Shown one piece after another: positions 53,269 to 64,000 of a DNA stretch of 64,000 bases. Below the pieces are notes generated by a model. It was not told the origin of the DNA. It did not search any database and worked only from the letters and a program-made list of their open reading frames with translations. How positions within the stretch are numbered: position 1 is the stretch's first letter; the number at the start of each line of letters is the position of its first letter. Source of the stretch: Candidatus Schekmanbacteria bacterium RIFCSPLOWO2_02_FULL_38_14. GTDB taxonomy: Bacteria; Schekmanbacteria; GWA2-38-11. The stretch covers positions 62,001-126,000 of the forward strand of contig MGDH01000011.1 in NCBI GenBank assembly GCA_001790855.1. The letters are read 5' to 3'. Position numbers and translations under genes: made by a program.

Positions 53269-53907
53269 CTATTGTTCATTGTTAATCTGAAAACATTTTA
53301 TTATATTCAGCGTCATAACACCATCTCCATCAGTTTGATTCATAATAAAATTTTTTATTTTCTCTCTTTCGTTTCCATAAAACTCTTTATTTGCCATTCG
53401 TATAATTTCTTCTATTTTATCATCTTTTAATTTTCCAATTCCAAGCATAGGATAATTACTTGCCCATGGCATTTCTTCGACCTCTGATGGACTCAAACGT
53501 GATATGAGTTTCTGAATCTCTTTTATAAACTTATCTATTTTAATTTCGCTGATTTTTTTAAGGTTTCTGTCCATCCTTATCTGTTGTCTTATCTCCTTTA
53601 CTCTGAGTTCAATCCCTATTTTCTTTATTCGCAATTTCCCAGGCACTATTGAGTACTCTGCCTCGTTCTCAGCATTTTTCATTGTTCTTTTTATAACAAA
53701 TGTCTTCTTGCCGTTTGTGACTTCAAAATAGGATTCTTTTGCTGGTCTGCCAAAAGGTTCATCACTGACATAAGAACCTTCTTTTGAAAGCAGTTTTTCC
53801 AGGCTGTGCCCCTTATGTCTTTTTTCAAAAACATCCTTATCATCTACCCCTTCAATAATATTTACTATCTCATCACATTCAATGCACCTTATTAATTTTC
53901 CAGTCAC
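53269..53907 (-). CDS. Unrecognised protein with a small CxxC zinc-like head
   Basis: 212 residues from a GTG at 53907 (GGAG seven bases upstream). Starts RCIECDEIV, a CxxC pair with a nearby His-rich KRHKGH, so a small zinc ribbon is possible. The remainder is helical and charged (ELRVKEIRQQIRMDR). Not recognised. It follows the receiver-HD-GYP gene by 20 bp and may be part of the same sigma-54-driven transcript. Confidence 0.55.
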   Translation of the reverse strand: MTGKLIRCIECDEIVNIIEGVDDKDVFEKRHKGHSLEKLLSKEGSYVSDEPFGRPAKESYFEVTNGKKTFVIKRTMKNAENEAEYSIVPGKLRIKKIGIELRVKEIRQQIRMDRNLKKISEIKIDKFIKEIQKLISRLSPSEVEEMPWASNYPMLGIGKLKDDKIEEIIRMANKEFYGNEREKIKNFIMNQTDGDGVMTLNIIKCFQINNEQ

Positions 53908-53927: not shown

Positions 53928-55031
53928 TTAACTTAAAGCAATCAACTCACCGTTTTCTAAAAACCCTAAAAATATTTCTACAAGTTTTGGGTCAAACTGT
54001 GTTCCTGCGTTTATTCTCAATTCCCTGATGACTGCATCTTTAGAAAGGGCAATCCTGTATGGCCTGTCAGTTGTCATTGCATCATAAGCATCAGCTAAAC
54101 CAACTACTCTTGCAGCAAGTGGAATTTCATCTCTTTTTAAACCATCCGGATAGCCTTTCCCATCCATTCTTTCATGGTGGTGTCTTATCACAGAAATAAT
54201 AAAGGAAGAAACGTTTAAAGGCTTTATTAAATCAACTCCTTTTATTGGATGCAGCTTCACTATTTCCCACTCCTTGTCTGTTAATGCAGTTTCCTTGAAT
54301 ATGTATTCATTGCTTACCCCTACCTTTCCTATGTCATGAAGAAATGTTGCTATCTGTAGTTCGTTTTTTTCCTCTTTTGTAAAAGGAAGCTTTTCCGTAA
54401 TCAGATTTGAATAATAGGAAACTCTTCCTGAATGGCCATGAGTATAGGGGTCCTTGCTTTCAAGAGTGCAGGAAAGGACTTTTATAAATTCCAGAAAATC
54501 AATAGGATTTCCGCTTCTGTTTTCTTTAGCGTTTTCATTGAATATCTTTCTGATTTTTTCAATTAACGGCTGGTTCTCCTGAAGGGTACTCTTGACAACA
54601 TCAAAATCTCTTTTAATGCCTAGTTCCTGAACATTATTTAAAAGATTACTCAAGTGAACATTTAATTTTCTTCTCTCAACTGCCTTTTTAATTACTGAAA
54701 TTATTTCAGCAACATTAAATGGTTTTGTAATGTAATCAAAAGCCTCCCATCTTATTCCGTCTATAGCTGTTTTAAGCGTCCCATATCCAGTAATTATTAC
54801 AACCTCTATATCTGAATTATGTTTCTTAATTGCTTTTAATACCTCAATTCCTGAAATTCCTGGCATTCTAAGGTCTAATGTAACCAAATCTATTGCTTGC
54901 TGGTGTATAATCTCAATAGCCTTTTTGCCATCTTCAGCAGTATACACCTGGTAAGTAGGTTTAAGTATCATTCTCAGGGATTCTCTAGGTCCGATTTCAT
55001 CATCAACAATAAGGATAGAAGGTTGGTTCAT
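53928..55031 (-). CDS. Response regulator with an HD-GYP phosphodiesterase domain
   Basis: 367 residues. Receiver 1-120 with Asp in DLVTLDLRMPG and Lys in YITKPF intact. HD-GYP domain about 195-360 with FLHDIGKVGV (HD), RHHHERMDGKGYPDGL (GYP) and DAYDAMTTDRPYR. It should break down c-di-GMP when phosphorylated. ATG at 55031 with AAGGAG; a sigma-54 promoter precedes it. The upstream EBP and kinases are natural controllers. Confidence 0.93.
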   Translation of the reverse strand: MNQPSILIVDDEIGPRESLRMILKPTYQVYTAEDGKKAIEIIHQQAIDLVTLDLRMPGISGIEVLKAIKKHNSDIEVVIITGYGTLKTAIDGIRWEAFDYITKPFNVAEIISVIKKAVERRKLNVHLSNLLNNVQELGIKRDFDVVKSTLQENQPLIEKIRKIFNENAKENRSGNPIDFLEFIKVLSCTLESKDPYTHGHSGRVSYYSNLITEKLPFTKEEKNELQIATFLHDIGKVGVSNEYIFKETALTDKEWEIVKLHPIKGVDLIKPLNVSSFIISVIRHHHERMDGKGYPDGLKRDEIPLAARVVGLADAYDAMTTDRPYRIALSKDAVIRELRINAGTQFDPKLVEIFLGFLENGELIALS

Positions 55032-55085: not shown

Positions 55086-55101
55086 AGCAAATCTTATGCC
55101 A
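55086..55101 (-). promoter_or_regulatory. Sigma-54 promoter of the HD-GYP gene
   Basis: On the minus strand TGGCATAAGATTTGCT agrees with the consensus TGGCAYRNNNNTTGCW at every position. The -12 GC would place the start site near 55075 and a 44-nt leader before the ATG at 55031. Confidence 0.85.
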
Positions 55102-55199: not shown

Positions 55200-55247
55200 G
55201 CTAACCATTTCACAAAAAAATGTACATATTTGTACAATGGTGTTAGC
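55200..55247. promoter_or_regulatory. Nested palindrome, candidate enhancer for the sigma-54 promoter
   Basis: Two TGTACA palindromes (55221-55226, 55231-55236), 4 bp apart, sit inside a longer imperfect dyad GCTAACCAT (55200-55208) and ATGGTGTTAGC (55237-55247). The centre lies about 150 bp from the predicted start, the usual distance for an NtrC-type activator site. The rest of the spacer 55032-55407 is AT-rich with no gene. Confidence 0.6.
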
Positions 55248-55407: not shown

Positions 55408-56775
55408 TTAATTTTCTACTTCAATCCCATATTTATCCATTTTATACTTTAAAATTCTTCTGCTTATTCCTAAAATGTTGGCAGCTTTTGTTTGAACAAA
55501 ATTAGCCTTTTTAAGAGCATTAAGAATTATTTCTTGTTCAAATTCCTGCCCTGCCTCGTCAAAAAGAATATTACCATCAAGGACTTCTTCTTTAAGTGTG
55601 TTGGCTTTTTGAATTATTAAAATATTAGGCGGTAAATCATCTTTTTCTATTGTATTATTATGTGTAAGGGCAACCATTCTCTCTATAACATTCTCAAGCT
55701 CTCTGACATTTCCGGGCCAGTTGTATGAAATCAAAACCTCAATCGCTTCCTCAGAAATTTTCTTTTTTTCTTTTTTTCCATCCGCAGAAACACGCGATAA
55801 AAAGTAATCTGCAAGAAGAGGAATATCTGCTTTTCTTTCTCTTAAAGGCGGAATAACTATAGGAACTACATTTATCCTGTAATATAGGTCTGAGCGAAAC
55901 ATTCCTTTTTCAACAGCCTTCTCCAGATCCTTGTTAGTAGCAGTAAGCAATCTGACATCAACTTTAACAGGTTTTGTTCCTCCAATCCTTACAAATTCTC
56001 TCTCCTGCAACACCCTTAAAAGCTTTGATTGAGTAGCTGTTGAAAGTTCTCCAATTTCATCAAGAAAAAGAGTTCCCTTATCAGCCATTTCAAATTTCCC
56101 TATCCTTTTCGCATAAGCATCAGTGAAAGCTCCCTTTTCAGACCCAAAAAGTTCACTCTCTATAAGAGTTTCAGGAATTGCAGCACAATTAATCGCTACA
56201 AAAGGGAATTCCTTTCTGTTACTGTTATAATGAATTGCTTTTGCAACTAATTCCTTTCCTGTACCGCTCTCACCCAATATTAAGACTGTTGATTTTGTGT
56301 CAGCGATTTGCTCAATCGTATGGAAAATCTCTCTGATAACCCCAGTATTTCCAATGATACTGCTGAAACTGTAGTCGCCTTGTCTTACTTCTTTTTTTTT
56401 CGTTGAACCATTTTCGCTCAGAGCCTTGCTGATTAAGAGCTTTATTTCATCAATATCAAAGGGTTTAGTAATGTAATCATAAGCTCCTAATTTCATCGCT
56501 GATACTGCTGTTTTAATTGTCTTAGTTGCAGTGAGCATTATAACTCTAACATTATCTCCTCTTTCCTTAATCTTCTTTAAAATCTCTATACCATCCTCTC
56601 CTGGCATAATGATATCAAGAAAAACCAGGTCAGGTTTTTGCTCTTTAATGGTCTTTAAAGCGGTGCTTCCGTTTCCTGCCATTAACACCTCGTACTCATT
56701 TTTCAGAATCATGCGTATTGATTCCCTGATGCTTAATTCATCATCAACAATGAGAATTATTTTTCCCTTCATCAT
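55408..56775 (-). CDS. Sigma-54-dependent NtrC-type response regulator
   Basis: 455 residues. Receiver (DLVFLDIIMPG, YITKPF), AAA+ domain with Walker A GESGTGKELVAKAIHY, Walker B GTLFLDEIGEL and a Fis-type helix-turn-helix (AANILGISRRILKYKMDKYG). The sigma-54 contact loop reads GAFTDA where GAFTGA is standard. It should activate sigma-54 promoters after phosphorylation. It overlaps the upstream gene by 4 bp (ATGA). The paired kinases are the likely phosphate source. Confidence 0.92.
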   Translation of the reverse strand: MMKGKIILIVDDELSIRESIRMILKNEYEVLMAGNGSTALKTIKEQKPDLVFLDIIMPGEDGIEILKKIKERGDNVRVIMLTATKTIKTAVSAMKLGAYDYITKPFDIDEIKLLISKALSENGSTKKKEVRQGDYSFSSIIGNTGVIREIFHTIEQIADTKSTVLILGESGTGKELVAKAIHYNSNRKEFPFVAINCAAIPETLIESELFGSEKGAFTDAYAKRIGKFEMADKGTLFLDEIGELSTATQSKLLRVLQEREFVRIGGTKPVKVDVRLLTATNKDLEKAVEKGMFRSDLYYRINVVPIVIPPLRERKADIPLLADYFLSRVSADGKKEKKKISEEAIEVLISYNWPGNVRELENVIERMVALTHNNTIEKDDLPPNILIIQKANTLKEEVLDGNILFDEAGQEFEQEIILNALKKANFVQTKAANILGISRRILKYKMDKYGIEVEN

Positions 56776-58724
56776 ATCTCCTTGTATGGGCCGCTTATTA
56801 TAGGCAGTAGTATACTAACATCAATTCCGTTATTATTAAAAGTATTTATTGTCATTCTCCCGCAGCTATATTTTATTAATTGTTCTGCTAAGAATATTTC
56901 AATTCCCTTCATTTCTGAATAGTTATCTTTTATTTCCTGAGAGATCTCATCATCTTCTCTCTTTTTGGATTTTGCTTTTATATGGAGATCAACTGCGTCT
57001 TTGAAAATATTTTCAGCATCTATATCATTATTATGCTCTGCCTTTGCAGAAAATTTTATTTCTCCTCCTCCCTCTCCTGCTTCTTTAATTAACTTTGAAA
57101 TTATGTTTTTGAAAACACACTCAAATTTATTGTTTTCCACACATATTTTAGACAAATCATTACTAATATCTTTATAAATAAATATTTTTCTTTTTTCAAA
57201 TTCTTTACTGAATGACTTGATTGTCTTGTTTAAAATTGATGATAATGGCTCTCTTTTTCCTTTTACTGACAACACATTTTGATATTCCAGTATTCTCTCA
57301 ACCAACGAATCAATTCTCTCTACATCCCGGCTTACTATTTTATAAAAATTCTCTCTGAAGTCTGGATCATTAAAATTCTCAGGAAATAAATTAGCAAAGG
57401 TTTTAATTGCAACCAGAGGGTTTTTAATTTCGTGTGCTAATTCAAGAATCAGATTGTCATTATAATTAGTTATACCGTGCGATTTTGCAATTTTGAAATT
57501 TACTGAATCTGTTTTTATACTATCTGATAATGAACTTTTCTCTATCATTGACTTTTTCTGAATATCTCCAAACAAAGGGGAGATTTCATCAGCAGAGATT
57601 ACTTCATTCTCAGACAGCACTGCTGCCCTCAGCACTATATTTTCAAGTTCCATTAAGTTCAGTGGCCATAGGTAATTCTGGAATAATTCCATTGCATCCT
57701 GTGTAAAAGATTTCTTTATAATATTAAGATTTTTCATCCCTTCGCTGAGTATCATATTGACAATCAATGGAATTTCATCTTTTCTATCTCTCAATGGAGC
57801 AATGTTGATTGGAAAAAGGCTAATCTTATAAAACAGCTTTGGGTCAAACCTGTTTTGTCTCATTTCATAAAAAAGATTTTTTGATGTAGATGCAACTATC
57901 CTTCCATTAAATTTTTTAAACTTGCCATTTTCTGTTATAATTCCTCCGAGATCAAGAAACTCCGACAGTGCCATCTGTAGTTCGCAAGAAAGATCTTCTA
58001 TTTTGTTAAAATATATTGTCCTGTATAAAGATTCTTCTTTCTGAAATCCAGATTCTGCTTCATCTTTAAAAATGCTTGTTAATTCCTTCAGATTTAAACT
58101 GCTGCAGTTTATATTAACAAATTTTCCTTTTCTTGAACTGCTGTAGTGAATTATTCGTGCTGCCAGTTCACGCCCTGTTCCTCCTTCACCGCTTATCAGG
58201 ACTGACGCCTTAATTGGAGTTGCTTTTTTAAGCAACCGGATTACTTCATTCCCAAATTTTAATAAGTTTGAAGAAATAAGATATTTATCATCGGTTATAT
58301 TCTCTTCTATCACTTTCTCCATGGAATTTTCCAGCCATCTTTTATTCATAAGAATTTCAATTTTATCTTTCAAATCAAATATTTCAGATGGAATTTTTAA
58401 GAATATTCTGTTTTTCCTTCCAAAAATACTCACTAAGTTATCTTCATTGTAATCAGCAAATAAAATAATGAATGGCAGGTCGTTGAATAAGGAATTTATT
58501 TCATACATGGAATTAATTTTTGTATCTGTGAGAGACCCGATTTCAAGAATAGCTACGTCTGCTTCTTCTTTTTTGGCAACTTCTTTAAAGTCTTTCAGAA
58601 AACTTCCTGAAATTAATTGGTATTCGTTTCCAAGAATTATTCTTATTGATTCTTTCAGGCTTTTGGAATCACTGCAAACTAATATTTTGTTTTTCATGTC
58701 GTTCAATTGCCCTTCTTCGTTCAT
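56772..58724 (-). CDS. Pseudo-receiver, inactive sigma-54 AAA+ and histidine-kinase domain hybrid
   Basis: 650 residues (ATG at 58724; 58697 is a possible later start). Residues 10-130: receiver-like, but the phospho-Asp is Glu (VAILEIGS) and the acidic pocket is lost (LVCSDS). Residues 145-390: sigma-54 AAA+ fold with Walker A GEGGTGRE (Lys to Arg), Walker B IYFNKIED (Asp-Glu to Asn-Lys) and no GAFTGA (SGFQKE). Residues 425-485: HisKA with LAHEIKNPLV (His431). The ATPase part that follows has no clear G-boxes. No helix-turn-helix. It overlaps both neighbours, so a regulatory partner role is likely. Confidence 0.8.
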   Translation of the reverse strand: MNEEGQLNDMKNKILVCSDSKSLKESIRIILGNEYQLISGSFLKDFKEVAKKEEADVAILEIGSLTDTKINSMYEINSLFNDLPFIILFADYNEDNLVSIFGRKNRIFLKIPSEIFDLKDKIEILMNKRWLENSMEKVIEENITDDKYLISSNLLKFGNEVIRLLKKATPIKASVLISGEGGTGRELAARIIHYSSSRKGKFVNINCSSLNLKELTSIFKDEAESGFQKEESLYRTIYFNKIEDLSCELQMALSEFLDLGGIITENGKFKKFNGRIVASTSKNLFYEMRQNRFDPKLFYKISLFPINIAPLRDRKDEIPLIVNMILSEGMKNLNIIKKSFTQDAMELFQNYLWPLNLMELENIVLRAAVLSENEVISADEISPLFGDIQKKSMIEKSSLSDSIKTDSVNFKIAKSHGITNYNDNLILELAHEIKNPLVAIKTFANLFPENFNDPDFRENFYKIVSRDVERIDSLVERILEYQNVLSVKGKREPLSSILNKTIKSFSKEFEKRKIFIYKDISNDLSKICVENNKFECVFKNIISKLIKEAGEGGGEIKFSAKAEHNNDIDAENIFKDAVDLHIKAKSKKREDDEISQEIKDNYSEMKGIEIFLAEQLIKYSCGRMTINTFNNNGIDVSILLPIISGPYKEI

Positions 58725-60819
58725 AACGTCTCGGATTAACTGGTAAATTTATGAAAAATGAACTTCCTTTCCCTGTCTGGCTTTTAACATTAATTGTACC
58801 ACGATGTTCCTGAACAATCTGATGACTTATTGAAAGGCCCAATCCTGTCCCAGTATGTTTGGTGGTGAAAAACGGTGTAAATATGTTTTCTATATCTTTT
58901 TCAGGAATTCCCTCCCCAGTATCACTGATTTCCACCTGAATTATATCAACCCTATCCTCATAATATCTTGTAGTAATAAATATTTCTCCACCTTCAGATG
59001 TTGCATGTATTGCATTCATAATGGTATTTAAGAATACCTGCTTCATCTGCTCTCTGTCCATCAATATTTTTGGAAGATCTGTATTATAGTTTTTATTAAT
59101 TGATATGTTTTTCTTTTTTGCCTGATTATTAACTAGAAGAGCTATTTTTTCAATAACTTCATTGATATCCTCTTCATTAAGATTTGGCTTGGAAGGTTTT
59201 GCAAAATCAAGAAGTTCACTGAGCAGGCGGGATATCCTCTCCACTTCCTCAACAGTAAGGTTCAGAAAATTAGTCCTGAATTCCTTGTCATCGAATCTTT
59301 CAGGAAGAAGCTGCAAAAATGTTTTTATTGAAACAAGAGGGTTGCGTATTTCATGGGCAAGTCCTGCAGTCAAAGTTCCAAGAGAGGCAAGCCTGTCGGC
59401 TCTTTGCATATTTGTTTTTGACTTCTTTAAATTGTCGTACAATTTTGCGTTTTCAATAGCAACAGCGCTCTGGTGAGCCAAAATCATTAAAAGCTCTATA
59501 TCTTTTCCTGAATACATTTCCCCGGACTCTTTCCTTCCAAGAGAAACAATACCGATTAATCGCTCCCTGATTATAAGAGGCAAAAACACTTCCGCCTCCA
59601 TGTTTTTCATTGTATTCGCCACAGCAACAATCTTGCTGTCAGAGTAGTATTTCTCAATTTCCTCCTTTATTATAATGTCATTCCTTTCCTTAATCCAATT
59701 TGCGAAAAAGTTGTCCCTTGAGAAATAAGGGGAAATTAGCTCGTTGTCATAACCACAGGATTCTTCAATTTTAAAGACTCCTTTCTCATCATCAAGCAAT
59801 ATTATCGCTGCTTTTGTAATATTCATAGTTTTCACGAGACTTTCCAGTATCATTTTGAGAAGAGTTTTTAAATCGAGTATCCCGGCTATCATCTTTGTCA
59901 GCTTATAAACAGTATCTTCATAATTAAAATCCCCTTTAAAGAGAACTTCTTCGATACTCCTCTGAGTAACTCCTCTGTATCGCGGCAACACCCCTCCGAT
60001 TAAAAAAGTCATAAATGTTGTTAATGTAGTAAAAAAATAATCAGTCTCTCCAAGAAAATGTTTTTCTCCAAACAGTATCAAAAAGTATGTTGGAATCAGT
60101 AACAAAGAAAATATCATGAAATCAATAAATCCTTTTTTTATCAGATAAGTGATATCCATTATTTTGAAATAAATCAGCGCATAGCTTATCAACGAAAGAT
60201 AGAAAGAAGCAAAAGGCGCTGCAAATGGCAGGATTTTCAAGTCAAAAACAGGAAAAAAGGCAGTAAACCCTCCTGCAAAACCAAGAACTGATGCAATTGT
60301 TATGTATTTTATCCTTATCCGTTTGAAGCTTGATGTGATTGAATAGCATGACCTTGCCAATTCATAAATTATGTAGGATGCAAAAAAAACATATGTGAGG
60401 AAATAGACCGTATACAATTTTCCAGGATTTTCATAGAATCCGATTCCCTGCCTTAACTCCATTTTTTCAACAAGGATATTGGTAAAGCTGAGAATCAGCT
60501 CTGTTCCTCCAAGGAAATAGGCAAAAACAATCAGTTTTTTCTGTTCTCTTGTCTTATTTAAAAGCACAGATATGAAATGGAAGCTAATGGGAAGAATAAA
60601 TATGGCTCCAACATATACAACCTTGCACCAGAGAAGAGCCTGTTTCTCATCAATGGAAACAGCAGTCATATATCTTCCAGCCTGCCATACAGTAAGTATT
60701 AAACAGATAATGCACCATAATCTGTTTTGAAGATTTTTTCTTCCTTTGAGGTAAACAAACACTGCTGAAGTTAATGTCAGGAAAATCCCAAAAAAGAAAC
60801 CGAAAACATACCAGTTCAT
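58669..60819 (-). CDS. Membrane histidine kinase with GAF domain (paralogue 2)
   Basis: 716 residues. Seven to eight helices (1-280), a GAF domain (about 300-465), HisKA with GLAHEIRNPLVSIKTFLQLLP and HATPase with NTIMNAIHA, DTGEGIPEKD and GTGLGLSI. The layout resembles PrsK of the PEP-CTERM/exosortase system. ATG at 60819 overlaps the preceding kinase stop by 4 bp. Closely related to that kinase, so the pair arose by duplication. Confidence 0.9.
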   Translation of the reverse strand: MNWYVFGFFFGIFLTLTSAVFVYLKGRKNLQNRLWCIICLILTVWQAGRYMTAVSIDEKQALLWCKVVYVGAIFILPISFHFISVLLNKTREQKKLIVFAYFLGGTELILSFTNILVEKMELRQGIGFYENPGKLYTVYFLTYVFFASYIIYELARSCYSITSSFKRIRIKYITIASVLGFAGGFTAFFPVFDLKILPFAAPFASFYLSLISYALIYFKIMDITYLIKKGFIDFMIFSLLLIPTYFLILFGEKHFLGETDYFFTTLTTFMTFLIGGVLPRYRGVTQRSIEEVLFKGDFNYEDTVYKLTKMIAGILDLKTLLKMILESLVKTMNITKAAIILLDDEKGVFKIEESCGYDNELISPYFSRDNFFANWIKERNDIIIKEEIEKYYSDSKIVAVANTMKNMEAEVFLPLIIRERLIGIVSLGRKESGEMYSGKDIELLMILAHQSAVAIENAKLYDNLKKSKTNMQRADRLASLGTLTAGLAHEIRNPLVSIKTFLQLLPERFDDKEFRTNFLNLTVEEVERISRLLSELLDFAKPSKPNLNEEDINEVIEKIALLVNNQAKKKNISINKNYNTDLPKILMDREQMKQVFLNTIMNAIHATSEGGEIFITTRYYEDRVDIIQVEISDTGEGIPEKDIENIFTPFFTTKHTGTGLGLSISHQIVQEHRGTINVKSQTGKGSSFFINLPVNPRRYERRRAIERHEKQNISLQ

Positions 60820-62975
60820 CTTACTGTCCTCTCAATAAATTCTTTTTCAGATAATTGGCAATCCTGCCCATTATCTGATTCCTCAGGATTAAGAGGGAGG
60901 CTGATAATAAAAGAACTCCCATTTCCTTCTTTGCTTTGCACATCTATTGTTCCTTTATGCTCCTGAATAATTTGATGACATATGGAAAGTCCAAGCCCTG
61001 TTCCGCCGTCTTTGGTTGTAAAAAACGGTGTAAAAATATTTTCAATATTTTTCTCTGAAATCCCTTTCCCTGTATCTTTTATCTCAATCTGAACAAATTT
61101 CTTTTCTCCTTCAAGAAATCTCGTTTCAATAAAAATTTCACCATTTTCATATGAAGCCTGAACTGCGTTCAAGATTACATTCAAAAAAACCTGTTTCATC
61201 TGCTCTTTATCAGCCATAACCTTTGGAAGTCCACTGACATACTGCTTGTGAATTACCAGATTCTTCTTCAGACCCTCATTCTCTGCAAGCATTATAACCT
61301 TTTCAAGCACATCATTTATGTCAATTTCCTTCAGTATTGGTTCTGAAGGCCTTGCAAACTCTAAAAGCTCAGTCAGTAAGCGGCATATCCTTTCAACCTC
61401 TTCGATAGTAAGATTCAAAAAATTATTTCTGAACTCGTTGTCATCAAACCTTTCAGGCAGGAGTTGTAAAAAGGTTTTTATTGAAACAAGCGGGTTCCGT
61501 ATTTCATGAGCAAGTCCTGCAGTCAGGGTTCCGAGAGAAGCGAGTTTGTCAGCCCTTCTCATATGAATTTTGGATTTTCTCAACATATCATATAATCTTG
61601 CATTCTCTATTGCTACAGAAGCTTGATTTGCCAAAGCCTTAAGCATCTCAAACTCTCTGTAAGAGTATACTCCGCCGTTTTCTTTTTTATCCAGATTTAT
61701 AACACCCACCAAACGATTATCATGAATAAGCGGCAGAGAAACTTCTGAATCCAACTCCATCATTTTTGTATTTATTAAATTCATCCTTGAGTCGTATGAA
61801 ATCTCTTCTTCAACCTCTTCCCTTATAACTACTTCATTTTTCTCTTCCATCCATCTGGACAGAAAATCATCTTTCCGTAACAAAAGATTCTTAATTTCCC
61901 CGTTAAATCCGTGTGAGGCTCTTATTTCATATTTACTCTCATCACTGTCAAGCACAAGAATTGACACTTTTTTAACAGCAATTGTTTTTATTATTATATC
62001 AACTATATATTCCAGTAAGTCATCTATCTCCAGAACCTGTGTAACTGTTTTGCTCAGGTTATAAAAAACATTCTCGTTTGTCACCTCATCCTTGAAAAAT
62101 ATCTCTCTTCCTTTTCTATCAAGAAGAACTTTTACCCTTGGGAAAACAAATGCTGCAAAGACAAAAAGCAGGAAAAGAATTAATGAAAAACTGTAACTAA
62201 ATACATCAAATGATACTTTTTCGCTTAGCAGAACTATCAGGAAACAGGGGACGAAAAAAAGTATAATTAAAAAAAAGTATGTTACACTCTTTTTTATGAC
62301 AACAGTAATTGCCATCAAGCGATATTTAACTATGGCATAGCTAATGATAAAAACATAAATTGTAGATAAATGGGCTGCAATTGGTGGTGTTTTTAAATCA
62401 ATAAGCGGGAAAAAGGATGTTGAAGCACTTACAAATCCAATTACGGATGCAAAAATAACATATCTTAACTGATTTTTTTTTAAAAGAAGAGTTGTTCTTT
62501 GGTGCTCTTTGATTAAAAGCCATACACCATAGATTGGAACCCAGTATACAAGGAAATGGATAAAATAAATCTTTCCAGGAACTTCATAGAAACCAAATGC
62601 AAAGTGGGAAATAACATCCTTAACAAACAACTTGCTAAAATTAAAGCCTACCAGTTCAACCAGTGCAAATCCATATCCAACAAAAAGTAGGGCTCTCTTT
62701 TCTCTGGCTTGTTCAACCAAAACAAGAAAAAAATGAAGCGTTAAAAAAGGAATGAAAATAGCCCCTAAATATAAAACTCTATTCCAAAAAAGAGCTTCAT
62801 CCCTACCTATTGAAACACCAACCATACAACGGCCAAAATACCAGAGAGAAACACTAAAGCATTGTAAGCACCATATCTTATTAAGAAATAGTTTCCTGTT
62901 TCTCAGATAGACAAAGATTCCAAGTATAAAAGCAAAAATGCTTCCAGTAAAAAAACCTATGGCATACCAGTTCAT
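60816..62975 (-). CDS. Membrane histidine kinase with GAF domain (paralogue 1)
   Basis: 719 residues. Same order as the neighbouring kinase: N-terminal helices, GAF (about 305-470), HisKA (GLAHEIRNPLVSIKTFLQLLP) and HATPase (NVILNAVQA, DTGKGISEKN, GTGLGLSI). Both catalytic domains look intact. ATG at 62975 with AAGGATAAAA, 3 bp after the ketosynthase stop. The ligand is unknown; a membrane or lipid signal is possible from the neighbour. Confidence 0.9.
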   Translation of the reverse strand: MNWYAIGFFTGSIFAFILGIFVYLRNRKLFLNKIWCLQCFSVSLWYFGRCMVGVSIGRDEALFWNRVLYLGAIFIPFLTLHFFLVLVEQAREKRALLFVGYGFALVELVGFNFSKLFVKDVISHFAFGFYEVPGKIYFIHFLVYWVPIYGVWLLIKEHQRTTLLLKKNQLRYVIFASVIGFVSASTSFFPLIDLKTPPIAAHLSTIYVFIISYAIVKYRLMAITVVIKKSVTYFFLIILFFVPCFLIVLLSEKVSFDVFSYSFSLILFLLFVFAAFVFPRVKVLLDRKGREIFFKDEVTNENVFYNLSKTVTQVLEIDDLLEYIVDIIIKTIAVKKVSILVLDSDESKYEIRASHGFNGEIKNLLLRKDDFLSRWMEEKNEVVIREEVEEEISYDSRMNLINTKMMELDSEVSLPLIHDNRLVGVINLDKKENGGVYSYREFEMLKALANQASVAIENARLYDMLRKSKIHMRRADKLASLGTLTAGLAHEIRNPLVSIKTFLQLLPERFDDNEFRNNFLNLTIEEVERICRLLTELLEFARPSEPILKEIDINDVLEKVIMLAENEGLKKNLVIHKQYVSGLPKVMADKEQMKQVFLNVILNAVQASYENGEIFIETRFLEGEKKFVQIEIKDTGKGISEKNIENIFTPFFTTKDGGTGLGLSICHQIIQEHKGTIDVQSKEGNGSSFIISLPLNPEESDNGQDCQLSEKEFIERTVR

Positions 62976-62978
62976 TTT

Positions 62979-64000
62979 TTATCCTTCAAATCTCCTGAGA
63001 ACAACCACAGAATTATAACCCCCAAAACCAAAAGAGGTTTTAACAATAGTTTTTATCTCCTTTTTACAACCCTTGTTGGGGACATAGTCCAAATCGCACT
63101 CCGGGTCTGGGATATGAAGATTTATGGTAGGATGAAGGAATTGATTCTCAAGCATTAGAAAACACGCAACAATTTCCATAGCACCACATCCGCCCATTGC
63201 ATGACCTGTCATGGATTTTGTTGCTGTAACTGACAATCTGTAGGCATGTTTTCCAAATACGTTTTTTATCATCAGAGTCTCTGCCCTGTCATTTACGATT
63301 GTTCCGCTCCCATGAGCATTGATATGGTCAACCTCCCTTGGAGATATACCGGAATCTTTCAAAGCAATCTGGATCGCCCTTGAACCCTGAAGAGAATCCG
63401 GCAAAGGGGTCATAACATGATATGCATCGCAAGTTGCTCCATAACCTGTAATCTCACCGTAGATTTTTGCTTTTCTCTTTTTTGCATGCTCATACTCTTC
63501 AAGAATAATAATTCCTGCTCCTTCTCCAAAAACCAATCCATCTCTGTCCCTGCTGAACGGTCTATAGACAGTTGAGGGGTCTCCACTATGCTTAGAGAGA
63601 AGATTAACATTGGCAAAAGTAGCAATGGCAAAAGGGGTAACAGGTGTTTCTGAGCCTCCTGCAATTGCAACATCTACCCTTCCGTTTCTTATATACTCGA
63701 AAGCCTCCCCTACTGCTGAAGTTGATGAAGCGCACGCAGTTGTGATTGTCTGGGTTGGCCCTGTTATTCCATAACTTATCATTATCTGGCTTGCACAGGA
63801 ACTTGGTATTATTGATGTGGCAAAAAATGGGTTTATTCTTTTATACCCTTTTTCAAGGAATATTGCATGTTGCCTCTCTCCTATTGCCAGCGCTCCAACG
63901 GATGTTCCTATTAAAACAGCTATTCTTTCTTTTCTTTCATTCTCTATGTCAATTTTTGAGTCTTCAAGCGCCATCTTTGTTGAAACAAGACCAAATTGAG
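62979..64000 (-). CDS. Beta-ketoacyl synthase, C-terminal part (gene continues past the window)
   Basis: The frame stays open to base 64000 and reads into FGLVSTKMALEDSK, so the start lies outside. Active-site residues: TACASST (Cys), NAHGSGT and SMTGHAMGG (His). The SGTIVNDRAE stretch fits FabF-like synthases of polyketide, aryl-polyene or similar pathways better than housekeeping FabF, but the choice is open. Its stop is 3 bp before the kinase genes, making an operon with them. Confidence 0.88.
   Translation of the reverse strand, partial: QFGLVSTKMALEDSKIDIENERKERIAVLIGTSVGALAIGERQHAIFLEKGYKRINPFFATSIIPSSCASQIMISYGITGPTQTITTACASSTSAVGEAFEYIRNGRVDVAIAGGSETPVTPFAIATFANVNLLSKHSGDPSTVYRPFSRDRDGLVFGEGAGIIILEEYEHAKKRKAKIYGEITGYGATCDAYHVMTPLPDSLQGSRAIQIALKDSGISPREVDHINAHGSGTIVNDRAETLMIKNVFGKHAYRLSVTATKSMTGHAMGGCGAMEIVACFLMLENQFLHPTINLHIPDPECDLDYVPNKGCKKEIKTIVKTSFGFGGYNSVVVLRRFEG

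Follow-up and report, generated by a model that had tools for sequence, protein, structure and literature searches.

NifL and PII are known ways of regulating σ54 activators, proteins in which a helix-turn-helix (HTH) domain is usual but not universal. Pseudo-kinases and pseudo-receivers are each known singly. NifL is a kinase-like DHp/CA protein that is encoded with, and acts on, a σ54 activator (PMC12998174). Spo0B, ChpT and PhyT, which are believed to derive from histidine kinases, are dimeric histidine phosphotransferases in which a DHp histidine lies beside a CA (HATPase_c-like) domain without ATP-binding features (PMC3433190, PMC5898713). DivL is a repurposed kinase that binds nucleotide poorly and still docks a receiver (PMC4211667). 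Relatives of the NtrC-type σ54 activators (EBPs) with a defective GAFTGA motif include TyrR, VpsR and HupR; a fusion of such a protein to a kinase transmitter is not described in the same source (PMC3162934).

Here, we describe a hybrid protein that carries degenerate forms of a receiver (REC), a σ54 AAA+ activator and a kinase transmitter in one chain. Its gene was delimited by reading frame, Pfam, alignment and orthologues to 56772..58724 on the minus strand of a 64,000-nt stretch (the window, to which coordinates refer unless a locus is named) of Candidatus Schekmanbacteria bacterium RIFCSPLOWO2_02_FULL_38_14 (G000), and all features described below in the window lie on that strand. The product has 650 aa if translation starts at M1 (58724) and 641 aa if it starts at M10 (58697). 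Upstream lie two paralogous 7TM-GAF-HisKA-HATPase_c sensor histidine kinases, HK1 (58669..60819) and HK2 (60816..62975), with catalytic motifs intact by Pfam and alignment; downstream lies an intact REC-AAA+-HTH_8 activator, the partner EBP (55408..56775; Pfam and site table), followed by a response regulator with an HD-GYP-type HD domain, RR-HD-GYP (53928..55031). The reading frame of the hybrid overlaps that of HK1 on one side and the ATG of the EBP on the other, HK1 overlaps HK2, and a KAS/FabF-like gene (62979-64000; named by eye) ends 3 nt upstream of HK2, so that the KAS/FabF-like gene, HK2, HK1, the hybrid and the EBP look like one operon. A literature search covering titles and abstracts, with subscription papers outside its scope, returned no description of such an architecture or of such a degenerate activator.

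Pfam recognizes Sigma54_activat (69.9 bits), AAA_lid_14 (55.1 bits) and HisKA (36.2 bits) in the hybrid, all exceeding the cut-off, and finds no Response_reg, HTH_8 or HATPase_c match at E<=1 and no N-terminal PAS sensor domain. The receiver at the N-terminus and the CA domain at the C-terminus, both too degenerate for Pfam here, were located by alignment to the neighboring proteins; the receiver of a hybrid from another phylum (G059, below) does match Response_reg (35.7 bits). The resulting order is a pseudo-receiver (aa 11-128; 58341..58694), a pseudo σ54 AAA+ core (aa 156-311; 57792..58259), an AAA+ lid (aa 312-391; 57552..57791), a DHp/HisKA hairpin (aa 421-490; 57255..57464) and a CA domain (about aa 491-646; 56787..57254). 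An AlphaFold model shows four folds (mean pLDDT 84.8) whose relative placement is not fixed (pTM 0.49); the input alignment combined orthologues with canonical EBPs and kinases from the fetched loci, and the canonical rows may favor canonical folds. The C-terminal half folded alone from a single sequence reached a pLDDT of 40. In a fold search NtrC1 and NtrX, the best solved relatives, ranked top for the front half, and the AAA+ domain matched those of NtrC1, FleQ and PspF. Among solved structures, no chain spans both halves of the hybrid by sequence. The front thus has the receiver-linker-AAA+-lid arrangement of NtrC-family EBPs.

The same gene arrangement is found in other genomes. A genome search recovered a full-length hybrid, 44% identical to the window copy, from Ca. 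Schekmanbacteria bacterium GWA2_38_11 (G001, locus L021), which belongs to the same family as G000, and a full-length hybrid of 27-29% identity from a Schekmanbacteria genome of the same order (G002, locus L042). A copy in a further Schekmanbacteria genome (G003; L041:3588-4490) ends with its contig after 301 aa, and a genome from another phylum (G059, contig C70) encodes a full-length one; conservation per site therefore rests on four full-length copies. A 7TM-GAF kinase lies 5' of the hybrid at every locus and an NtrC-type EBP lies 3' in the window, G002 and G059, where the contig continues, so that the layout is shared by all four Schekmanbacteria genomes compared (one copy being cut by a contig end) and by one genome of another phylum. 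Wider profile sampling of 386 and 385 overlapping genomes, with three candidates scored per genome under strict cut-offs, found hybrids only in Schekmanbacteria and G059; searches of the phyla around G017, G027, G055 and G059 found no further hybrid, and none of the remaining genome-contig matches (L022-L031) had both halves in one frame. The first-pass annotation had named a frameshift or assembly error, and homologues retaining every catalytic residue, as possible refutations. The former was rejected, together with a chimera: the 650-aa frame has no internal stop, GC content by codon position shows no break in the gene, including at the AAA+/HisKA junction, and the layout recurs elsewhere. 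Fast overall divergence and the loss of many motifs might indicate a decaying pseudogene; because the frames are intact, the layout is preserved across diverged genomes of two phyla and the DHp is almost invariant, pseudogene decay was likewise rejected, and we regard either a pseudogene or an assembly chimera as scarcely credible. Since the gene set occurs in two phyla and two recognition surfaces have been kept (below), the hybrid is probably a working go-between rather than debris.

Alignment of the window hybrid to the neighboring EBP and to 11 further EBPs from G000 revealed how far its active sites have eroded. The phospho-accepting Asp of the receiver is Glu61, and the DD pair is SD; at the phospho-Asp position the three remaining full-length copies have E, G/N and G, and the residue is uncertain in G003. 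Walker A reads GEGGTGRE, with Lys replaced by Arg185 (58167..58190), and Walker B reads TIYFNKI (57999..58019), with Asn240-Lys241 where most EBPs have DE. The L1 segment that should carry GAFTGA is about 9 residues shorter and reads SGFQK (58038..58052); the sensor I Asn is Ser, the sensor II Arg is Met, and the arginine-finger motif FRxDLYYR has become FDPKLFYK. In the CA domain the Mg-binding Asn of the N-box is Lys, and DxGxG (G1) and GxGLG (G2) are gone. Retained are the structural AAA+ signatures PLRxR and WPxN (PLRDR and WPLN in the lid) and the motif LAHEIKNPL, with His431, Glu432 and Asn435 (HEIKN; 57420..57434) present in all four full-length copies. The hybrid therefore has the AAA+ fold of σ54 activators, by Pfam score and fold match, and, in contrast to NtrC-family EBPs, lacks the GAFTGA loop, the Walker A/B motifs, the arginine finger and the HTH, and has a kinase transmitter appended. 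As a histidine kinase it has a HisKA domain with a phosphorylatable His and lacks the N, G1 and G2 boxes of HATPase_c, and as a response regulator it lacks the phospho-acceptor Asp.

The changes to the phospho-Asp, Walker A and Walker B, the missing GAFTGA and HTH, and the HisKA with its His in place had all been noted in the first-pass annotation and are borne out. Its count of three degenerate catalytic modules falls one short, because a complete but degenerate CA domain (~491-646) follows the HisKA. Its description of these modules as dead fits the window copy and does not extend across lineages, as losses vary by copy: Walker B DE survives in G001, the Walker A Lys in G002 and a complete Walker A in G059, whereas the G003 copy has none of Walker A. 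None of the homologues retains the full set of catalytic residues. The hybrid copies examined lack GAFTGA and the arginine finger, and every full-length one lacks the N, G1 and G2 boxes; even so, in some lineages the AAA+ part may still bind nucleotide. An EBP-like front without the σ54 contact loop, arginine finger and HTH resembles a poison subunit, and the kinase-like back, the pseudo-AAA+ or both could bind the EBP and block ring assembly independently of phosphate. NifL offers a precedent, being kinase-like without phosphotransferase activity and binding the AAA+ domain of NifA through its GHKL/DHp to block the hexamer (PMC12998174). We consider such a dominant-negative or anti-activator role the main rival to the reading favored below, but rather unlikely, since a blocker would not need the invariant His431, Glu432 and Asn435, the AAA+ domain (27-47% identity) ranks with the more weakly conserved segments, and one copy is without Walker A. 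NifL also carries PAS sensors, whereas the front of the hybrid is a receiver and AAA+ domain, and sensing would fall to the separate kinases.

The best-conserved part of the hybrid is the DHp hairpin. Identity between the window copy and those of G001 and G002, respectively, is 81% and 63% in DHp α1, 56% and 51% in the hairpin plus α2, and 50% and 50% in receiver α1, falling to 34% and 18% in the rest of the receiver, 47% and 27% in the AAA+ core, 51% and 33% in the lid, and 39% and 18% in the CA domain; overall, orthologues are 63-81% identical in DHp α1 versus 17-47% in the remainder of REC, the AAA+ core and CA. The DHp of the hybrids is 44-55% identical to that of the module kinases and at most 33% identical to that of other kinases. 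V, I, T, F and L at positions +7, +9, +11, +12 and +15 after the His, together with HExxN, are common to the hybrids and the kinases of the module; none of 19 further kinases compared (18 of them from G000, the other from G003) has this combination, and the hybrids differ from the module kinases in α2 and at +8 and +14. The EnvZ specificity positions T250, L254 and A255 correspond to +7, +11 and +12 (Capra et al., PMC2991266). In HisKA proteins, kinase but not phosphatase activity requires the Glu beside the His, and phosphatase but not kinase activity requires the Thr/Asn at +4 (Willett & Kirby, PMC3510030); Glu432 and Asn435 never vary in the full-length hybrids.

The second conserved surface is receiver α1 (aa 20-33, SKSLKESIRIILGN; 58626..58667), whose docking face is kept and is shared only with the neighboring EBP and RR-HD-GYP. 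In a comparison of 30 of the 37 receivers found by Response_reg, α1 of the pseudo-receiver is 51% identical to those of the module EBP and RR-HD-GYP and 20% identical to those of 29 further receivers of G000; outside α1 the domain is at background (17% versus 16%). The module receivers show the opposite pattern against other receivers, with 20% in α1 and 39% elsewhere. Since DHp and receiver α1 have been kept while the catalytic motifs eroded, the recognition surfaces of both partners have outlived the active sites. The shared docking residues could be mere ancestry, because the hybrid DHp derives from the module's kinase, and the sole argument for function is that they persisted while their surroundings changed fast. 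With α1 the sole receiver segment still near the module receivers, the pseudo-receiver might be a decoy that occupies the DHp of HK1/HK2 or of the hybrid itself and titrates kinase output, the remainder serving as scaffold; this we find very improbable, as it leaves unexplained why the DHp rather than the receiver is best conserved.

Trees built from the transmitter half unite the hybrids (98/97) and join them to the module kinases (98/99, and 90/82 once G059 is added), apart from the 19 other kinases. The module EBPs of G000, G002 and G059 cluster (98/98), the module HKs form a cluster of their own (90/67), and each component forms its own group spanning two phyla. Long branches blur the place of the hybrid front among EBPs; within G000, the neighboring EBP matches it best. 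We read this as a single fusion within the module that would have predated the split of the lineages or been followed by transfer of the whole block, the hybrid having arisen from a copy of a module kinase's transmitter joined to an activator front and presumably having lost its ATP sites afterwards. It has no Pfam match to the ChpT or Spo0B families, and by tree its kinship is with the module's own HisKA kinases.

Judged by sequence, the hybrid shares with Spo0B, ChpT and PhyT a DHp His beside a CA domain that lacks a functional ATP site; those proteins, unlike the hybrid, have no receiver or AAA+ front, and phosphotransfer by the hybrid is a proposal. We favor, with a probability of roughly 45%, a pseudo-enzyme hub acting by DHp-based phosphotransfer or phosphatase activity on a dedicated σ54 pathway that would run from sensor kinase(s) through the hybrid and the NtrC-type activator to RR-HD-GYP, and we infer each of its binding and catalytic steps from sequence. 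A dimeric DHp four-helix bundle would dock the EBP receiver, and probably that of RR-HD-GYP, through the residues that the kinases use. His431 would act as phosphoryl carrier and Asn435 as phosphatase residue, moving phosphoryl groups between these receivers or removing them; the CA domain of HK1 or HK2 might also phosphorylate His431 in trans. The pseudo-receiver, with its docking helix and no phospho-site, may serve as a regulatory decoy that docks on the kinases or on the DHp of the hybrid itself, and the pseudo-AAA+ front could keep the activator close.

The retention of His, Glu and Asn with a dead CA favors phosphotransfer or phosphatase action over NifL-like blocking and over a further alternative, in which the dead transmitter reads the phosphorylation of the EBP or RR-HD-GYP and signals to HK1/HK2 by contact, without catalysis. 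A dead CA with a conserved docking surface has its precedent in DivL (PMC4211667). DivL, however, has PAS domains and Tyr in place of His, whereas the hybrid keeps the His and HExxN, with its Glu and Asn, and we hold a non-catalytic sensor to be improbable. The suggestion in the first-pass annotation of an adaptor or inhibitor between the two kinases and the activator is partly supported, agreeing with the gene order, the overlapping frames and the docking surfaces on DHp and pseudo-receiver; nothing in these data singles out inhibition rather than the transfer or removal of phosphate, and the persistence of His431, Glu432 and Asn435 argues for more than a passive blocker.

The likely output of the proposed hub lies beside it. 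A σ54-type -24/-12 site of the form GG-N10-GC, TGGCATAAGATTTGCT (55086..55101), is 55 nt upstream of RR-HD-GYP, and a matching site in G002 (L042:12195-12210, plus strand) is 56 nt upstream of its counterpart. A putative activator-binding site, TTGTACAAATATGTACA (55221..55237), with the pattern TTGTACA-N3-ATGTAMA, has a counterpart in G002 at about L042:11984-12000 (plus strand); this pattern, TTGTACANNNATGTAMA, lies farther upstream than the promoter in both the window and G002, with an exact match once only in each of the two genomes. Sites of the -24/-12 type are at chance in the window (2 found versus 2.06 expected), so that the promoter is supported by its similar position in two diverged genomes rather than by count alone. 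σ54 is present in all four genomes, and we infer that the RR-HD-GYP gene is the target of the EBP. Because REC α1 is shared, the module kinases may phosphorylate RR-HD-GYP too, and the hybrid may have it as a second client.

Tentatively, and at somewhat less than even odds, we suggest that these proteins form an unnamed class in which a degenerate receiver, AAA+ activator and kinase transmitter make up one docking hub within a fixed kinase-hub-activator module, where the His/Asn site would set activator phosphorylation and couple the HD-GYP regulator. If so, the class would be a new mode of σ54 activator regulation beside NifL and PII, and a clean natural test of selection on recognition surfaces apart from catalysis. 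Made up of a kinase, the hub, an activator and one putative promoter, the module is small and could be rebuilt in E. coli.

Several other features of the locus were observed. HK1, HK2 and the EBP match TIGR02916 and TIGR02915, the models for the PrsK/PrsR-type 7TM-GAF kinase and activator of PEP-CTERM systems, at scores under the curated cut-offs, and those models have no hybrid partner. The kinases are a tandem pair in G000 (58669-62975) and G001 (L021:4501-8804), and a single kinase is seen directly 5' of the hybrid in G002, G003 and G059. In place of GAFTGA, the EBPs of the window (55408-56775) and G059 have GAFTDA and that of G002 has GAYTSS. The KAS/FabF-like gene directly adjoins the kinases on their 5' side in each of the four Schekmanbacteria genomes (also L021:3241-4497, L041:216-1457 and L042:5364-6602), and ORFs resembling radical-SAM proteins and methyltransferases, named by eye, lie near the locus in G000 and G001. 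An ORF 3' of RR-HD-GYP (53269-53907), without a significant Pfam match, has a counterpart that is similar by eye in G002 (L042:13388-14089, plus strand) and is a possible further member of the regulated unit.
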